64,000 nucleotides of DNA from Promethearchaeota archaeon (GTDB lineage Archaea; Asgardarchaeota; Lokiarchaeia; Sigyniarchaeales; Promethearchaeaceae), in assembly GCA_016933055.1 (NCBI GenBank), contig JAFGBS010000004.1:62001-126000 (forward strand). The letters run 5' to 3'. Below, piece by piece: positions 20,839 through 33,431 of the stretch (positions are counted from its first letter, which is position 1; each line of letters starts with the position of its first letter). Position numbers and translations under genes: made by a program. Under the pieces are notes generated by a model that was not told the origin of the DNA, made no database searches, and saw only the letters and a list, made by a program, of their open reading frames with translations.

Positions 20839-22035
20839 ATGGTGAATAAAAATTATCTCGAAGAAGAATTTCGAACGAGTAGTCTATTTCTCGATGAATC
20901 TGTTTTTGAATCCGAATACATTCCCAAAGTTATAAAACATCGAGATAACGAGTTAGTTTTTCTTTCAAGACTGTTCCTTCCATTACTAAGTCACCCCCTA
21001 AAATTTTCGAAAAAAATTCTCATCATAGGAAATGTAGGTGTCGGAAAAACTGTCACCATTGGCTATTTTGGGAAAATGATACAACAATCTGCTCAAAAAC
21101 GAAAACTAAATTTGAAATTCGTTCATCTCAATTGTAGACATAATCGGTCTAGTTCCCATATATTGAAAAAAATCGTAAATGAATTAGTGGGTGGTATACC
21201 AAACCGGGGATTGTCAAATCAAGATCTAATTGATATACTAGTCGAGTATCTTCAAGAACACAAATGCCATCTAATTCTTGTATTAGATGAATTAGGCTAT
21301 TTGATGAAAAAAGATTCTAATTTGATTTATACTCTATCTCGATTCAACGAAATGACTTTCTCTGAAGTGTCTCATTTATCTCTTATAGGAATTGTTAAGG
21401 ATTTGCTTACATTGCGAAACTTGGATAATGCTACTGTTAGTACCTTACAAAATGAAGTAATTCGTTTTAAGAAATATACTGAAAAGCAGATAATGGAAAT
21501 TTTACGCGATCGGGCAGAACTTGGTCTGAAACCTGGGGTTGTTGATGATTCTATTCTTTTTATTATTTCTTCGTTATCATCAATTTCAGGAGATATGAGA
21601 AAAGCACTGAATTTATTACGGAATGCGGTACGGTATGCTGAACATAATAAAATTGATTGTATAACGGCCGAAATCATTCAAATTGTTAATGCAGAATTCG
21701 AATCATTTAGTATTAATGAATTAACTAACTTAAATCGTCAAGTGTTATTATTATATAAATCCGTATGTAATTTACTCTCCGCTTCAAAATCTCAGATCAC
21801 TATGAATGAAATTAAGGAAGAGTATTTCGCTGTTTGTAAGCAACATAATAACCAACCACGATCTGACACTCAAATTTGGGGATACCTTCAACAGTTAAAG
21901 CGAGATCATCTACTCAGTATTAATTTTCGAAACAAGAATCAACAGGGGAGAAGATCCTATTATAGCATACCTCGCTTACCAGTAAAAACTATGTTAAAAC
22001 AAGTAGAGATGATCTTAGACCATTCAGAGGATTGA
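20839..22035 (+). CDS. cdc6: Orc1/Cdc6 replication initiator
   Basis: AAA+ ATPase with Walker A GNVGVGKT (64-71), Walker B LVLDEL (147-152), a sensor region, and a C-terminal winged helix (about 300-390). Archaeal Orc1/Cdc6 binds origin recognition boxes and loads the MCM helicase. GGAG lies 9 nt before the ATG. These genes often sit beside an origin; the 129-nt upstream gap contains one G-string-like element (20747-20760, minus strand), which is weak evidence. The ArsR-like gene follows immediately. Confidence 0.93.
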   Translation: MVNKNYLEEEFRTSSLFLDESVFESEYIPKVIKHRDNELVFLSRLFLPLLSHPLKFSKKILIIGNVGVGKTVTIGYFGKMIQQSAQKRKLNLKFVHLNCRHNRSSSHILKKIVNELVGGIPNRGLSNQDLIDILVEYLQEHKCHLILVLDELGYLMKKDSNLIYTLSRFNEMTFSEVSHLSLIGIVKDLLTLRNLDNATVSTLQNEVIRFKKYTEKQIMEILRDRAELGLKPGVVDDSILFIISSLSSISGDMRKALNLLRNAVRYAEHNKIDCITAEIIQIVNAEFESFSINELTNLNRQVLLLYKSVCNLLSASKSQITMNEIKEEYFAVCKQHNNQPRSDTQIWGYLQQLKRDHLLSINFRNKNQQGRRSYYSIPRLPVKTMLKQVEMILDHSED

Positions 22036-23254: not shown

Positions 23255-25357
23255 ATGACTATAGAAATAAACTCAAAATTTACCATTCAAGAGGAATTTG
23301 GACTAAATCCTAAAAAACGAGTTGTACAAAATAATCTGAAAATGCATTGTAACAATTGCGATCACTATTCGATCCCACCAATAGGACGATATAAGAATAA
23401 TCTTATTTGTTTAGAGTGTGCATTATCTGCGATATGTTCACTACCAAAAGAAGTTCAAGTCGCTAAGATAGGTTTTGATGAAGATCTTTTCACTCCTAAC
23501 AAGGACAACCGGATATTAAAGAAATTAACACGATACTATAATTTATGGCTTAATGTAAGAGGTATTTCTCATATCAACGAAAAGAATGAGTGTGTTTTTA
23601 AAAACACTTCACAGTTTGATCATTTTCTTATTGACTTATGCCATTTTCAGCAGAATAAATCCCCGAAACCATGCAAGTTCTGTAAAAAAATACTTGAAAA
23701 AGCCCTCAAAAAAGAATTTATACTCAATTCCTTGATTTGTAATCTCCCCTTAGCAAGAGAATGGATAGGTGACCTAATATTCATTGGTCCATACAGTGTG
23801 AAAAACCAGATCCAGTTTCCATCGAATGACACAGAAATGGTGGAAGTTGCATCTTATGAAATTACCCTAAATTCTCTCTACACCATTATGGTATATAAAA
23901 AACATCTGATGGAATACTACATAGAGATTTATCATAATTTCGGTTCAAAATCAACAGAATTTTATAATACCATCATAAAACACGTATTAAATAATATTCC
24001 CGATTTAGAATTTACTCATCTACTCCCTATAGGGACGATTGTGGAAAAAACTGTCGTTCATATTTCGAATTATTTAAAATTGAACTATCATAATCTTGAT
24101 TCCAATGAAATTTGTAAATTAGCTCTATTTATTTCGCTAAAAAAACTCCGTCTCGGTTTGCTATTTCCCTTTTTAATTGACGACAATATTGATGAAATAT
24201 ATCTAGACGGCCCCCAAGACAAACTATATTTAGATCATCGAGATTATGGTCGATGCATGACATCTATTCGGTTGTCTGAAGAAGATATTGAAGCAATACA
24301 AACCTTTGTAAGGATTTCTAGTAATAAACGATTGGATTCAACAAATCCCACTCTCAAATGTTCGATTTCCAACCAATACTTTCATTGTAGATTTGCAGTA
24401 GATATTTCTCCCGGGGTTTTATCTGGATTTGCATTTAATATTCGGAAGATGAACAGAAAGATTTTTTCACTTCCAGAATTGATACATCGAGGCATGCTTT
24501 CAGCCCAAATGGGGGCTTTTCTTTATCTATGCGTAGAAAACAGAATAAACATTACCGTGGCCGGGGAAACCAATTCAGGAAAAACTACGCTGATTAACAG
24601 TCTAGATCTGTTGGTCCCTTCACAATCACGTAAAATATATGTAGAAGAATCACCAGAATCAATAGATCAGTCATTTACATACTGTCATCAACTTAAATAT
24701 CAAGTAGATCCCGTCAATATCAATTCTACGAAAACTACAGAAATATACAGATTATTACATAGAAATCCAGATGTCGTCTATTTAGGGGAAATTTTAACTA
24801 GAGAAGAAGCGCACGCAATGTTCCATTGTTTAAGTGCAGGGTTGAGAGGATTTCAAACAATACACGCAAGAGACTTAAACTCATTGTTAAACCGTTGGCA
24901 ATATCATTTTGATATTGATCCTGTTTGTTTTAATGATTTGGGGATCGTGATCGTGCTCAACCGTAGACTTATGAGAAGGCACATAACTGACATCGTCGAG
25001 ATTCACTGTACTGGAGGGAAAGTAATTCAAAATCCCATTTATAAATATAATCCTGAAACAACTTCATGGAATCCTCCCATAAGCTGGGACAACCTTAGAA
25101 TATTTCAACGTTTACTGCTACCTCAAAGAAAGATCGACGAAATGGATAAAAAACTTCATTTTTATGAAGAGGTTCTTAATGCTCTTTCTCAAAAACAGAA
25201 ATGGGATATAAAAGAACAGATACTTTTTTTCCTGATGATACAAGCAAAATTGAATAAATCAAATCTTATGGATAATTCAATTGATTGGGCAGAGATTAGA
25301 GCATTTTTGAAAGATTCACAAGCAGAACGGAGTAATGAGTCATGGGAGAAATTTTAG
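23255..25357 (+). CDS. TadA/GspE-type secretion ATPase of a pilus
   Basis: The C-terminal half is a type II/IV secretion ATPase: Walker A GETNSGKTT (about 436-444), Walker B-like DVVYLGEI (about 505-512), and the His box TIHARD (about 535). The middle domain has DDNIDEIYLDGPQD, typical of TadA/CpaF. The N-terminal 230 residues are unusual: a four-cysteine zinc site (Cys 32, 35, 52, 55), then CKFCKK near 141. The enzyme powers pilus assembly. Its last 16 nt overlap the next gene, so translation is coupled. Confidence 0.9.
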   Translation: MTIEINSKFTIQEEFGLNPKKRVVQNNLKMHCNNCDHYSIPPIGRYKNNLICLECALSAICSLPKEVQVAKIGFDEDLFTPNKDNRILKKLTRYYNLWLNVRGISHINEKNECVFKNTSQFDHFLIDLCHFQQNKSPKPCKFCKKILEKALKKEFILNSLICNLPLAREWIGDLIFIGPYSVKNQIQFPSNDTEMVEVASYEITLNSLYTIMVYKKHLMEYYIEIYHNFGSKSTEFYNTIIKHVLNNIPDLEFTHLLPIGTIVEKTVVHISNYLKLNYHNLDSNEICKLALFISLKKLRLGLLFPFLIDDNIDEIYLDGPQDKLYLDHRDYGRCMTSIRLSEEDIEAIQTFVRISSNKRLDSTNPTLKCSISNQYFHCRFAVDISPGVLSGFAFNIRKMNRKIFSLPELIHRGMLSAQMGAFLYLCVENRINITVAGETNSGKTTLINSLDLLVPSQSRKIYVEESPESIDQSFTYCHQLKYQVDPVNINSTKTTEIYRLLHRNPDVVYLGEILTREEAHAMFHCLSAGLRGFQTIHARDLNSLLNRWQYHFDIDPVCFNDLGIVIVLNRRLMRRHITDIVEIHCTGGKVIQNPIYKYNPETTSWNPPISWDNLRIFQRLLLPQRKIDEMDKKLHFYEEVLNALSQKQKWDIKEQILFFLMIQAKLNKSNLMDNSIDWAEIRAFLKDSQAERSNESWEKF

Positions 25358-25746
25358 AAAGGGGATTGATGATCGGTTTTGGTCTGACAATCACAATCTT
25401 CTTATTTTCTGTATTTTCACCCGTTATCTCTTTAATATTCTCCGATGTATCTTCTATGGATCAATATGACATGTTTATTTTTACCATACAGTATGGCATA
25501 ACATACAATCCTCAGTATCCCGAAGAAGAATTATGTATCAATGCGTCCATATCCTTTGAAATCTCCTTGGAGGTGGAGGAAACAGATCAATTTTCCTATT
25601 TAACACTAAACACTAAATTTAAATCCATCACCTTTTTCAGCTCAAAATCAATTATTTTGCTAAATTATACCGTACAAGGGGATATTCAATGTATTTTCTA
25701 TTACCCATTGGATGCCATTATATTGAGTTTTTGGGAGAGGACTTAA
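25342..25746 (+). CDS. pilin-like single-span protein of the pilus locus
   Basis: A hydrophobic helix lies at residues 8-32 directly after ILERGLM, with a beta-rich, probably external domain behind it (134 residues in all), the shape of minor pilins or TadE/G-type proteins. A class III signal (ERG before the hydrophobic run) is possible. It lies between the ATPase and the platform protein and overlaps the ATPase gene by 16 nt. The function is inferred from architecture and place. Confidence 0.6.
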   Translation: MGEILERGLMIGFGLTITIFLFSVFSPVISLIFSDVSSMDQYDMFIFTIQYGITYNPQYPEEELCINASISFEISLEVEETDQFSYLTLNTKFKSITFFSSKSIILLNYTVQGDIQCIFYYPLDAIILSFWERT

Positions 25747-27565: not shown

Positions 27566-28063
27566 CTATAATTCGACTTCTCGTTTTTCAATAAGAAATC
27601 TACATACGTCAGAGTCCGGATCAACAATTGAGCAATCTAATTCCTCTACTTTTACATTATATAGTGAAAAATCCCCGAAACCTGTCAATAGTCCACTTAG
27701 AAAGAAACAAATATCTTTCGAAAAACTACCCTCTTCTTGAGAAACATTATTTTTTAAATTGATAATCACCCGTTCTTCAGAGATTTCTTCGGCAGTGAAT
27801 AAACCCCATCCGGTCGCACTAATCATATCTAAAAAGAGTGTGGTTAATTCCTCAAGATTATTTGGACGAACATGTTCTTCCCAATTCTCTATCAATCTTC
27901 GCCCCATCTTTTTTCCTAGGTATTTAAGGAGCGGTTTCGATCCTTCTCCATAAATCTGACCTAATAAAGATATTATGTTAGGAGGGACAAACACAATTCG
28001 TTCTCCAAATAACTTTACAATTCCGTCTTTTGATTCTATACCCCTCATTCTAAAATCTTTCAT
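27566..28063 (-). CDS. V4R-domain protein (TRAPP-like fold), copy 1
   Basis: 165 residues. The pattern IISLLGQIYGEGSKPLLKYLGKKMGRRL, then GWGLFTAEEI, a strand, FLSGLLTGFGDFSLYNVKVEELDCSI and DPDSDVCRFLIEK is the V4R (4-vinyl-reductase-like) fold, related to the Bet3 family of TRAPP vesicle-tethering complexes. Two conserved cysteines remain near the C terminus. It is paired with a second, more diverged copy 17 nt upstream. Confidence 0.75.
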   Translation of the reverse strand: MKDFRMRGIESKDGIVKLFGERIVFVPPNIISLLGQIYGEGSKPLLKYLGKKMGRRLIENWEEHVRPNNLEELTTLFLDMISATGWGLFTAEEISEERVIINLKNNVSQEEGSFSKDICFFLSGLLTGFGDFSLYNVKVEELDCSIVDPDSDVCRFLIEKREVEL

Positions 28064-28080
28064 ATTTTTCTACTCCATCT

Positions 28081-28602
28081 CTAACTGATAAATTCAAATT
28101 CAAAAACACATGGCTTTTGGGATTCCATCGAAATATCCGTCAATTTAGGAAACACCTCTGCGCCAGCAAATGCTAGAGATCCTAAAAAAATGCCACTATA
28201 TAAATTAGAAATGAGAGTAGCATCTTGTTTGGATTGTACCTCTTGCACGATGGAATTGAATACGGAAATCTTCACACTAGTATTCTCAATATAACTCATT
28301 TCAAATTTCCCATAACCCATATTCATCAAGTTCACTAACAATTCCTGAAAAAGTTGCTTTTTGGACTTTATTTTTCGGTTTTCTTGGATATTTTTACACA
28401 ATGCTTTTCCTATAGTTTTTCCCGTCCAAATTAAAATATCTTCTGATCCACTCCCTATTAGATCTCCTAGTTGAACCAAATCATAAGGACGCATTATCAC
28501 TAAAGCGAAATCCGTGTCTTTCAAGTAAATATGGGATTTATCAGAATCTAAAGAAATATTTTTAAGATTTTTTGAAGCCAATCGTCTAAACATTTGAACC
28601 AT
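28081..28602 (-). CDS. V4R-domain protein (TRAPP-like fold), copy 2
   Basis: 173 residues with the same layout as its neighbour: VQLGDLIGSGSEDILIWTGKTIGKALC, MGYGKFEMSYIEN, a strand pair, then LYSGIFLGSLAFAGAEVFPKL. The C-terminal cysteine-rich segment is reduced. Tandem unequal copies suggest a heterodimer, as Bet3-type subunits form in TRAPP; this is inference. It lies just beyond the SRP RNA from the GTPase/roadblock genes. Confidence 0.65.
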   Translation of the reverse strand: MVQMFRRLASKNLKNISLDSDKSHIYLKDTDFALVIMRPYDLVQLGDLIGSGSEDILIWTGKTIGKALCKNIQENRKIKSKKQLFQELLVNLMNMGYGKFEMSYIENTSVKISVFNSIVQEVQSKQDATLISNLYSGIFLGSLAFAGAEVFPKLTDISMESQKPCVFEFEFIS

Positions 28603-28662
28603 CTGTGCGTTTTGTTATATGTACATTATTTCTGTTTTTTAATTTATCCTTGATCACGCAAG

Positions 28663-28671
28663 TTTAAAAAA
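28663..28671 (+). promoter_or_regulatory. TATA box of SRP RNA
   Basis: TTTAAAAAA is centred about 26 nt before the predicted 5' end of SRP RNA (about 28692). Confidence 0.5.
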
Positions 28672-28691
28672 CACAAACCATTCATTTCTAT

Positions 28692-28985
28692 GACTAGGAA
28701 GATTAGGAATCTTCTTGAAACTCTTCTTTGAATGAGTGGAGCCGTACCTATAGCGGTAAGCAATCTGAGATATTTGGACGTTCAAATACGATCCGTTACT
28801 ATCGTCGATGAGTAGTGAACTTAGAACGGCAAGTAGCCCAAAGCTCTTCTTGTAGGAGGGGGGTAATTGGGGTTGCACCAATCCGATCAGGCCCGGGAGG
28901 GAGCAATCGTAAGTGCACTATTTTGTGCGACTAATGATTTGCTATGAGACCAGTACCAGTATTGGATTTGGACTGAAAAATATCG
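28692..28985 (+). ncRNA. signal recognition particle (7S) RNA
   Basis: The helix 8 signature is present: CAGGCCCGGGAGGGAGCA (about 28888-28905), with GAT/ATC closing pairs, a GGGA tetraloop and the asymmetric loop that binds SRP54. It is preceded by the helix 6-like ATTGG/CCAAT hairpin and followed by GTAAG as in other archaeal 7S RNAs. The 5' part holds a perfect GAAGATT-agg-AATCTTC hairpin and Alu-domain-like stems. Ends are estimated from the TATA box and from the usual 300-nt length; uncertainty is about 15 nt. Confidence 0.85.
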
Positions 28986-29002
28986 AGGATTGGGTCACTT
29001 TG

Positions 29003-29578
29003 TTAAGGAGTTAGAGGGATAAAGGGAAATAAGAATTCAAGCATATTATAAAAAGCGGTTACTACTCCTCTACCCTGGTTAGCAATCGTAGGAATTAATT
29101 TGAATTTAAGAAATTTAGATAATTGAAAATGGGAGATAATTTGCTCCTCTGATACAATACTTGGTAAATCTCTTTTATTTAAACAAACAACAATTGGGAT
29201 TTGATAAAAATTTTCTCCATAATATAGAAAAAGCTCATTCCATGACCGTGTATTATCTAAGAGAAATGCATATTGAGAATCTGCAACAAAAATAATACCA
29301 TCTAAATTCGTTACTGTGGCAGGTCTTGTACTAGCATAAAAGTCTTGACCCGTGGCAGAATACAATAAGATTTTTAGTTTCCAATCATTTCCCGTGATTG
29401 TGATACTCCCAAAATCAAAAACTAAAGTTCTTCCGGTAGTAGTTTCGATGGATCGTAAATTTTGTTCTTGTCCATAATAATTCATTAGATATTTCAAGGA
29501 GGTTGTTTTACCGGACATCGCGGGTCCAAAATATACAATCTTTATTTGGATTATCTTTGTACTTGAGTATATTATCAT
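29003..29578 (-). CDS. MglA-like small Ras-superfamily GTPase
   Basis: Motifs: P-loop GPAMSGKTT (18-26), the MglA-type TTTGRTLVFDF (46-56), G3 SATGQD (74-79) with the following YASTRPATVTNLDGIIFVADSQ, and G4 NKRD (134-137). This is the MglA/bacterial-type branch that works with roadblock (MglB) activators in cell polarity. The ATG at 29578 has GGGGAT about 7 nt upstream and lies 4 nt past the preceding stop. The roadblock protein two genes upstream is a natural candidate partner. Confidence 0.92.
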   Translation of the reverse strand: MIIYSSTKIIQIKIVYFGPAMSGKTTSLKYLMNYYGQEQNLRSIETTTGRTLVFDFGSITITGNDWKLKILLYSATGQDFYASTRPATVTNLDGIIFVADSQYAFLLDNTRSWNELFLYYGENFYQIPIVVCLNKRDLPSIVSEEQIISHFQLSKFLKFKLIPTIANQGRGVVTAFYNMLEFLFPFIPLTP

Positions 29579-29582
29579 TTTT

Positions 29583-30512
29583 TTATCCCCACAAGCTTTC
29601 AATTAAGTCCTCTTTATATTTCATGGGTTCTGTCTCAATTTCTCCTGTAAAAATTTCGCCCCACTCCGCTTTAATAAATTGAGTCAATCGACTAAAGGAG
29701 GCATTAGAATAGGATACTGTATCTAAAATTGTCTGATCACTCAGTTCCGTCTTCACATTTAACGAATTCAAAATCGATATTTTATTTAATATAGAAAATA
29801 CTCTTCGAGCAGCATTATAAAATTCCAGAATTTGGATCTTGAAAATATTTCGTTTTAGATTCTGCTCTTCAAAGCTAAAATCTAATAGTTCCTCCCGTAA
29901 TTCTTTAGAAAAATTTTTGAGTAGAGACAATCTTTGTTCAAAAATTCGGCGCATTTTCGTAATCGAATTATCAACAAATGTAATTGCTTTAGAATATATC
30001 AATTTTTCAAATTTTAGGTTTGAATTTTTAAATTTACTACCCACCATATTAACAACAATTTCATCATTAGAATTTTCAATTAACAAGAAGTTTTGGATCT
30101 TCTTCTGTACCATCTGTATTATGAAACTTAATCTTGCATTAAATCCGTCCTTATTGACTTTGGATTCATCTGACATAATATGATAACATAGAATCCAAGA
30201 TTTGAAGGAATTAAACAAGTGTAAAGCCTTGTGAAGAGCATCATTAGGGCACACAACTATATACCGGTTGGTATCATAATTAATTTCTTCCTCTTGTAAT
30301 AGCATATCCAATTCATTATTGGAAATAAAATCAGTATAAAAGATCAATTTCGTTCGAAAACTCATAATATCCGCTAAACTGTTAGCAAAAAATTCAACAT
30401 CCTCTTTGTCCGTTCCCGCAATTAGAACGGGGAGGCGATCTAGAAGACATCTCAACACAATAGAGAATTTCTCCTCTCCAATGTCAAATACTGCGTCATC
30501 AATCGATTTCAT
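29583..30512 (-). CDS. unknown protein between roadblock and GTPase genes
   Basis: 309 residues, no recognised family. The N-terminal half is alpha/beta: VLRCLLDRLPVLIAGTDKED (19-38) resembles a strand-loop-helix without a usable Walker A, followed by KLIFYTDF and RYIVVCPNDALHKAL. The C-terminal half is helical with coiled-coil character (about 170-290). It lies between a tandem-roadblock gene (10 nt) and an MglA-like GTPase (4 nt), so it probably works with them as effector, GEF or scaffold; this is inferred from gene order. Confidence 0.75.
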   Translation of the reverse strand: MKSIDDAVFDIGEEKFSIVLRCLLDRLPVLIAGTDKEDVEFFANSLADIMSFRTKLIFYTDFISNNELDMLLQEEEINYDTNRYIVVCPNDALHKALHLFNSFKSWILCYHIMSDESKVNKDGFNARLSFIIQMVQKKIQNFLLIENSNDEIVVNMVGSKFKNSNLKFEKLIYSKAITFVDNSITKMRRIFEQRLSLLKNFSKELREELLDFSFEEQNLKRNIFKIQILEFYNAARRVFSILNKISILNSLNVKTELSDQTILDTVSYSNASFSRLTQFIKAEWGEIFTGEIETEPMKYKEDLIESLWG

Positions 30513-30522
30513 ACAATTTAAC

Positions 30523-31566
30523 CTACTTCAACATGATACCGTTAATTATGTGTTTTAATTCAAAGGAATTAACGGGATTTTCAATTACTTGAGCCTCTTT
30601 TACGATTTTGTTCAATACAATTAAAAATCTAGGGAGTATAAGGCGTAACAATCCCAATTTTTGTCTTCCCTTTTTGACCGTAAGGGTAAAAATCCCATCC
30701 CCAAGTGGCACTGTAAATTGATAGTAACTCATACATTCCAATAATATAGAGGAAATTTTCATTTTTTTTAATAACCAAGCACACCGGTTTGCCGTAGAGT
30801 ACAACGCATAAGACATTGCTGCTTCATGTTCAAAATCCAACTCAGAAAAATTCCCCTCATTCAAGTAAGTAGAGACAATAAACCCTCCTGAAACGGTCAA
30901 ACTTGCTCGCGTCATATCAAGAACTGTTGAAGTGAGTTTTTGGTATGCTTGATCCATTTTAGCAAGGGTATTCTCTGAAAAACAGAAAGAGGTTGTGTTT
31001 ATCCGAAGAGTTTCTTTTGTATCTTCTTTAATACTGAAGGATTCTAGGAGATGGGCAATTTGTTTATCATCATATCGTCGTAAAGGGGGTTTGAATGATT
31101 CTCCCGTAAGTATCAATGATTTTTTTATCTCTCGTAAACTTTCCCGGGTTTGTAAGAAAACCCCTCCGAGATTGACTTTTGGTGCAGCTGTAATCGCAAT
31201 AAAAAATTCTTCATTTTTATTATCTATGTCTTGTCGAATCAAGATGCGATCAATAGGATCATCCATGGAATTTTTTAAAGGAGCGAGAAGGATTTTAGAG
31301 GATTTACCTTCGAGTAATATGTATTTTAATTCATCAGGATGAAGATGTAATCCTAAATTATAAATCGCAGAACTGGCAGAAGAAATATTGAAGATCTCGT
31401 CTCTTGATAACCATACTCCGGATGATTGGATGGGATTACCATCCCGTTGGGTTAACACTGCATTTTCTACACCGTTAACTTCTTTTATTTTTTCCAAACT
31501 TATTTTTATCTGATCCGCTGGCATGTATAATCCTTTGAATGAATCTAATAGGTTCTTCCACAGCAT
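30523..31566 (-). CDS. tandem roadblock/LC7-like protein (MglB-like)
   Basis: 347 residues with two roadblock-like units: residues about 17-150 (IKISLEKIKEVNGVENAVLTQRDGN, strand pairs, helix) and about 200-335 (QAYQKLTSTVLDMTRASLTVSGG, strands, LTVKKGRQKLGLLRLILPRFL). Roadblock proteins activate or anchor MglA and Rag-type GTPases. It heads a three-gene transcript with an unknown protein and the MglA-like GTPase and is divergent from the 16S rRNA promoter. Confidence 0.75.
   Translation of the reverse strand: MLWKNLLDSFKGLYMPADQIKISLEKIKEVNGVENAVLTQRDGNPIQSSGVWLSRDEIFNISSASSAIYNLGLHLHPDELKYILLEGKSSKILLAPLKNSMDDPIDRILIRQDIDNKNEEFFIAITAAPKVNLGGVFLQTRESLREIKKSLILTGESFKPPLRRYDDKQIAHLLESFSIKEDTKETLRINTTSFCFSENTLAKMDQAYQKLTSTVLDMTRASLTVSGGFIVSTYLNEGNFSELDFEHEAAMSYALYSTANRCAWLLKKMKISSILLECMSYYQFTVPLGDGIFTLTVKKGRQKLGLLRLILPRFLIVLNKIVKEAQVIENPVNSFELKHIINGIMLK

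Positions 31567-31938: not shown

Positions 31939-33431
<1,493 letters not shown>

Follow-up and report, generated by a model that had tools for sequence, protein, structure and literature searches.

We analyzed a 64,000-nucleotide (nt) stretch of the genome of a Promethearchaeota archaeon (assembly GCA_016933055.1, contig JAFGBS010000004.1, positions 62,001 to 126,000), here called the window. The window contains a three-gene operon encoding a tandem roadblock protein (RBL), a middle protein of 309 residues (MID), and an MglA-family small GTPase, in that order. RBL and MID are separated by 10 nt. The GTPase gene either overlaps MID by 20 nt, when read from a TTG start, or follows it after 4 nt, when read from the ATG at 29578, which is the start preferred by the alignment. 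A preliminary description of this DNA had placed five genes within positions 27566-31566, namely these three, read as one tight transcript unit, and two V4R genes. All five are present there on the minus strand, and spacings of at most 10 nt, or overlap, bear out the transcript unit. The triad is very probably a GTPase-regulating module.

To determine how widely this operon occurs, we searched for MID in 227 genomes of the phylum, 45 of them of high quality, representing 61 genera. MID was present in 112 of the 227 genomes, 33 of the 45 high-quality genomes, and 33 of the 61 genera. We then fetched 80 regions around MID, hand-picked for contig room and for spread over families (L, G, f, and g label fetched loci, genomes, families, and genera). 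RBL was located directly beside MID in 78 of the 80 loci and the GTPase in 77, and all three genes were found in each of the 11 sampled families. The gene order RBL-MID-GTPase, whose occurrence elsewhere in Asgard archaea the preliminary description had considered, thus recurs in 77 of 80 loci, far beyond chance. The exceptions were L071 and L074, each with a lone MID, and L068, in which RBL is in two pieces and no GTPase is adjacent.

The three genes are not equally bound to one another. An RBL profile matched 200 of the 227 genomes at E <= 1e-5, many only through single roadblock proteins. We fetched ten further regions with a strong RBL without MID, or MID without RBL, and found RBL and the GTPase side by side without MID at L219 and L221-L225. 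In G105, such a pair lies at L219 while MID is kept elsewhere (L074). At L226 (8754-10637), a second copy of the operon in G156, only an 85-residue remnant of MID lies between RBL and the GTPase, and this copy is a decaying module. RBL was alone at L220, MID occurred without RBL at L228, and L227 holds RBL and a piece of MID cut by the contig end. Because pairs without MID exist, we take the RBL-GTPase pair as the core and MID as a frequent, non-obligatory third member. Small clusters of roadblock and GTPase genes were also seen near MID-less pairs in f18 (L222:3306-5882, L223:8554-11128), and in many f3 loci (L044:9960-10649 and equivalents) another MglA-like GTPase is encoded on the opposite strand, at a distance of about 0.5-0.9 kb past the operon.

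The GTPase belongs, by its sequence, to the MglA family. Its best PDB matches are MglA (E 2.7e-25 to 5.1e-25), as the preliminary description had proposed. Arg58 and Gln86, the equivalents of MglA R53 and Q82, are kept in all 77 GTPases (six of which carry RTLLFD). At the position of MglA T78, in the G3 motif, 76 of the 77 have serine or threonine (Ser 64, Thr 12, Ala 1). Replacement of the usual aspartate in G3 by threonine or serine is described for the MglA family (PMC3000849, PMC4316618; papers are cited here by PubMed Central (PMC) accession, and statements taken from them reflect excerpts of their text). In RBL, the N-terminal roadblock was found by Pfam, and the second by profile matches, a half-versus-half comparison (E 9.3e-6), and fold. 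The roadblock fold of RBL is like that of MglB. The tandem roadblock protein was described correctly.

MID had been called unfamiliar, and it indeed has no credible Pfam or NCBIfam match. Searches of Pfam, NCBIfam, and PDB sequences returned only noise, and identities as an enzyme or as a member of a known family were rejected. The AlphaFold2 model of MID had a mean predicted local distance difference test (pLDDT) score of 87.9 and a predicted template modelling (pTM) score of 0.85. We ran VIA-align on the list of matches returned by Foldseek and found that the closest eukaryotic fold match is the C-terminal DENN part of folliculin. The eukaryotic scores were 11.8, 11.8, and 10.7 for folliculin, 10.5 for DENND1B, and 8.0 for a C9orf72-SMCR8 entry. 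The DENN fold is the fold of eukaryotic Rab guanine nucleotide exchange factors (GEFs) and of Rag and Arf GTPase-activating proteins (GAPs). Based on the predicted structure, MID is probably DENN-like. We do not file it as a member of the DENN family; the likeness is a likely one of predicted fold.

Pfam Folliculin_C matched 2 of 60 MIDs weakly (best E 5.1e-4). Across the 227 genomes, 53 had a match at E <= 1 and one was over the cut-off, compared with 0 of 14 control genomes. Ten of the 12 best matches belong to one Heimdallarchaeaceae family; the other two are the G083 MID and a match in G057. The match over the cut-off, a Heimdallarchaeal relative, exceeded it narrowly (27.2 bits versus 27). 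The C-terminal part of this Heimdallarchaeal family scored 44.2 against MID; the highest of 200 shuffles reached 23.7, and the runner-up among 37 local families 24.8. Against vertebrate folliculin the family scored 23.3, which none of 200 shuffles reached, if barely (best 23.1).

The Heimdallarchaeal proteins (L119-L128 and L134; for example L125:8715-9695) are about 326-342 residues long, with the match to Folliculin_C in the C-terminal half. Their N-terminal 140 residues look longin-like by eye and had no roadblock profile match, and we do not claim a longin there. A PDB search with a single Heimdallarchaeal sequence returned only BirA (E 0.44). Nine of these 11 loci also have a gene for a GTPase of about 315-335 residues at a distance of 2.7-3.2 kb; the only one that we scanned (L125:12357-13319) resembles Arf and has a longin/roadblock-like tail. 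Weakly folliculin-like or MID-like proteins were also seen in other Asgard loci (L129:5304-6206, L129:12224-13177, L130:8362-9450, L132:8479-10206, L133:8915-10597, and L135:8786-9877), and L129:12224-13177 comes directly after an Arf/Rag-like GTPase gene. These divergent sequences hint at a wider Asgard superfamily of DENN-like proteins.

Table 1 Features of the operon and its surroundings in the window.
Feature	Position	Strand	Details
RBL, tandem roadblock protein, 347 residues	30523..31566	-	roadblocks at about residues 15-155 (N-terminal) and 193-327 (C-terminal, MglB-like)
MID, 309 residues, DENN-like by predicted fold	29583..30512	-	alpha/beta domain about 1-160, helical part about 167-308; without Walker A
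MglA-family small GTPase, 199 residues	29003..29602	-	likely start ATG at 29578; PDB MglA E 2.7e-25; profile E 1e-43
V4R-like protein 1, 173 residues	28081..28602	-	outside the conserved triad; same family as protein 2; weak V4R matches at family level
V4R-like protein 2, 165 residues	27566..28063	-	relative adjoins flaJ in f3; Pfam V4R E 0.052; NCBIfam MsvR E 1.3e-4
Membrane-protein-like open reading frame, 100 residues	27228..27530	-	no relative in the other 79 fetched loci
FlaJ/T2SSF-like membrane protein, 479 residues	25792..27231	+	Pfam T2SSF matches at family level; near the triad in six families
Protein of 134 residues, pilin-like by position and look only	25342..25746	+	one N-terminal hydrophobic stretch; relatives in f1 and f3
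FlaI/T2SSE-type secretion ATPase, 700 residues	23255..25357	+	Cys-containing N-terminal extension; Pfam T2SSE E 8.8e-17
16S rRNA gene	31939..33429	+	divergent from the operon, upstream of RBL; Rfam RF01959, 1461 bits
orc1/cdc6 gene	20839-22035		near the module; also near the triad in seven families

Downstream of the operon, on the opposite strand, are the FlaJ-like gene, the small gene with a hydrophobic stretch, and the FlaI/T2SSE-type ATPase gene. The preliminary description had overlooked these pilus-type genes, which are among the commonest neighbors after the triad itself. Ranked by families, the commonest were orc1/cdc6 (7), a TFIIB-like gene (6), flaJ (6), and flaI (5), followed by a small helix-turn-helix-like gene, a membrane protein, and an apparently non-coding frame of 117 residues (5 each; the TFIIB-like, helix-turn-helix-like, and non-coding labels were judged by reading the sequences). 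The window ATPase matched Pfam T2SSE with 61.2 bits (cut-off 24.9) and the NCBIfam archaellum motor FlaI at E 2e-28, under the cut-off. Four of nine members of the FlaJ-like family matched Pfam T2SSF (best E 4.2e-4); the window copy did not.

We analyzed the distance between MID and T2SSE-type ATPases, which number 0-3 per genome in the 31 genomes checked. A FlaI-type ATPase lies within 28 kb of MID at at least 62 of 113 MID places and within 60 kb at at least 64. These counts are a lower bound: at 14 places no ATPase place was among the matches listed, and these include G182, G186, G206, and G210, which have an ATPase match at genome level (in G182, about 12.5 kb from MID). The distance was 4-15 kb in f1, mostly about 12 kb in f3 (about 5 kb in g6), 3-4 kb in f6, 4 and 22.5 kb in f7, 5 kb in f18, 10 kb in f25, and mostly 22-26 kb in f28. 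Many unlinked MID places are on short contigs, while those in G213, G187, G004, G158, and G002 are on longer ones. In 26 of 78 loci, all of them belonging to f1 or f3, the region upstream of RBL has 16S rRNA signatures. Assemblies probably break at the 16S gene beside the operon, which may hide the operon in some genomes. Because orc1/cdc6 is close by in seven families, the module region may lie near a replication origin.

The two V4R-like genes, 400 nt beyond the GTPase gene on the same strand, form one family. Fourteen of its 22 members match Pfam V4R, weakly (best E 0.0039). Neither window copy exceeded the V4R cut-off: protein 2 scored 14.1 bits against a cut-off of 31, and protein 1 had no match. 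Protein 2 also matched NCBIfam MsvR with 21.8 bits, under the cut-off of 220. In the fetched loci, V4R-like genes occur near the triad only in f1 and f3. They are beside it in 3 of 80 loci (L039, L040, and L072, all f1), in L072 on the opposite strand. The f3 loci have a single copy several kb from the triad, located 0.4-0.6 kb from flaJ in the nine loci that reach flaJ.

Taken together, these results describe a real, conserved GTPase module, whose novelty lies in the DENN-like reading of MID and in the function that we infer. RBL, MID, and the GTPase likely act together as a switch that would control the nearby type IV pilus-like machine; we give the proposal as a whole slightly less than even odds. 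In this scheme, RBL would provide within a single chain the pair of roadblock units for which MglB has to form a homodimer. It would bind the GTPase and, by positioning the Arg58 and Gln86 that the latter already carries, serve as its GAP. MID would be the exchange factor loading GTP, as DENND1B is for Rab35. The GTP-bound GTPase would then turn on the FlaI-type ATPase and the filament at a single cellular site, in the way that MglA acts on type IV pili in Myxococcus.

Several results weigh against this scheme and against a DENN-like MID. MID is not required, since RBL-GTPase pairs exist without it. Foldseek alone gave no match for MID at E <= 0.001. In VIA-align, the archaeal ATPases GspE (10.2) and FlaI (9.6 and 9.5) nearly equal the DENN proteins and are, for this reason, a live alternative for the fold. 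MID lacks the longin (u-DENN) of DENN modules and opens with an alpha/beta domain. In profile scans the window MID matched neither Folliculin_C nor DENN, and no MID passed the curated cut-off of a DENN-type family. Pfam DENN (PF02141) gave scattered matches in 18 of 227 genomes at E <= 0.1; none was over the cut-off, one that was examined is a dehydrogenase, and we discounted them. The direct comparison of MID with vertebrate folliculin failed as support (11.9, reached by 151 of 200 shuffles, not significant). A mixed profile, built from MIDs together with Heimdallarchaeal proteins and six further divergent Asgard pieces, placed SMCR8 first in PDB, at E 0.29 with 27 rows and E 0.024 with 23 shorter rows, but its non-MID rows had been chosen mostly for their Folliculin_C matches. 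Profiles of MIDs only found no DENN chain in PDB; with 27 MIDs the best row was an unrelated MazG-like chain (E 0.019) and SMCR8 was absent. The E of 0.024 is within noise, and therefore the mixed profile is not independent support. We dropped the SMCR8 match, and we lowered our estimate that MID is DENN-like after the MID-only control. The alternative is that the alpha/beta domain of MID has a degenerate fold of P-loop type, or another Rossmann-like fold, and that MID perhaps links the GTPase to the FlaI ATPase as an adaptor. The near-equal ATPase scores speak for it, and we give it a minor but substantial share of the probability. Three results speak against it: the Walker A motif was found in none of 80 MIDs, which led us to reject a working P-loop ATPase; the FlaI family scored 22.4 against MID, at noise level; and Folliculin_C matches two MIDs and a distant relative.

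The function of MID and the target of the GTPase also admit other explanations. The suggestion in the preliminary description that MID may be an exchange factor is sensible for a protein with the predicted fold of Rab GEFs, but Rag and Arf GAPs share that fold, and we give a GEF rather than a GAP subunit somewhat less than even odds. MID and RBL could instead form a joint GAP, either a split longin-DENN GAP like FLCN-FNIP and C9orf72-SMCR8, in which the RBL roadblocks would stand in for the longin pair and MID would be the DENN scaffold, or a RomY-like co-GAP. This option is tentative. Folliculin belongs to a GAP complex, RBL carries two roadblocks, DENN proteins can act as Arf or Rag GAPs (PMC12803157), and MglB works as a GAP in complex with RomY (PMC9481161). 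However, Arg58 and Gln86 are both retained in the GTPase itself, so it could need no more than an MglB-like protein, and the core pairs live without MID. For the proposed switch, a pilus-type target is natural because Myxococcus MglA activates type IV pili through SgmX (PMC7668184), and we consider this target evenly poised. At 35 of 113 MID places the ATPase is on another contig or far off, among the matches listed. Since orc1/cdc6 and the TFIIB-like gene are also conserved nearby, the linkage may reflect shared ancestry of the neighborhood, a good rival. The FlaI/FlaJ linkage would then be historical, reflecting a stable stretch of chromosome close to 16S rRNA and orc1/cdc6, and the target of the switch would be something else, for example membrane shape or traffic. 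This is possible, if not our expectation: the distance from MID to the ATPase is mostly 22-26 kb in Thorarchaeota and 16S lies next door in f1 and f3, but the linkage spans seven families with differing distances and orientations, and G081 has two triads with one ATPase beside each. The preliminary description had joined the V4R pair and the triad in one compact, TRAPP-like regulator of a membrane GTPase. The two occur together in the window and in L040, and a V4R-like fold is plausible for the pair, but we rejected V4R as part of the module because it is not conserved beside the triad, and such a regulator is very improbable. The GTPase-control half of that description fits well, as the triad is found across the phylum and MID looks DENN-like by predicted fold.

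Small GTPases are numerous in Asgard genomes, and their regulators are difficult to identify by gene order (PMC10933270). The operon joins one such GTPase to the proteins that likely regulate it, and the set is compact enough for purification and testing. Zhang et al. 2012 (PMC3521125) describe DENN and d-DENN as having a P-loop-like topology, as known only together in the DENN module, and as fused to longin in the eukaryotic stem lineage, and they derive the longin part from MglB-type roadblocks. Vignogna and Fromme describe DENN proteins acting as GAPs (PMC12803157), and MglB/RomY is counted among heteromeric roadblock GAP complexes (PMC9481161). Within the PMC literature, excluding supplements and preprints outside PMC, we came across no paper that names a DENN domain for Asgard archaea. 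No archaeal FLCN was found in excerpts of the PMC literature on FLCN and Asgard, and the excerpts of Tran et al. 2024 mention FLCN only as a eukaryotic complex (PMC10933270). If MID is DENN-like, the DENN module, whose assembly has been placed in the eukaryotic stem lineage (PMC3521125), has an Asgard precursor beside an MglA-roadblock pair. We tentatively suggest that MID may be the first prokaryotic DENN protein and that Asgard archaea may keep the parts of the DENN module (roadblock pair, DENN, and MglA-type GTPase) as separate genes in one operon, with Heimdallarchaea having folliculin-like proteins with an added N-terminal domain. Eukaryotic regulators that mark membranes would then descend from an archaeal polarity switch that served a pilus machine, and how membrane identity arose could be addressed by a biochemical experiment.

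Several known systems are close to the module. DENND1B, the Rab35 exchange factor, acts on another GTPase family and had no detected sequence similarity to MID. MID resembles folliculin (FLCN-FNIP) and SMCR8 (C9orf72-SMCR8) in that its best eukaryotic structural match is the C-terminal DENN part of folliculin and its relatives match Folliculin_C; it differs in lacking a longin, with the roadblocks on a separate protein, and the eukaryotic targets are Rag and Arf GTPases. In the Streptomyces conservons (CvnA-D), CvnC is DUF742, to which the window MID has no match and which is absent from the 25 families listed for 60 MIDs. No sensor histidine kinase was recognized among the ten genes scanned around the window operon, with the neighbors at other loci listed by conservation only. 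Conservons are nevertheless similar in that a single operon encodes a small GTPase, a roadblock protein, and a protein whose function is not known (PMC4316618, PMC13343842). The Asgard roadblock, Rab, and TRAPPC3 proteins of Tran et al. 2024 come from the same phylum and have the same domain types (PMC10933270), whereas RBL, MID, and the GTPase form an operon in many relatives (MK-D1 is outside those checked). The MglA-MglB polarity module of Myxococcus xanthus and Thermus thermophilus likewise has an MglA-type GTPase with Ser/Thr in G3 and intrinsic Arg and Gln, a partner with the MglB roadblock fold, and a link to pilus-type machines. In Myxococcus an extra regulator, RomY, works with MglB as a co-GAP, and MID is the third gene of the operon here. 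The Asgard roadblock protein differs from MglB, a homodimer of single-domain chains, in carrying its two roadblocks in one chain.

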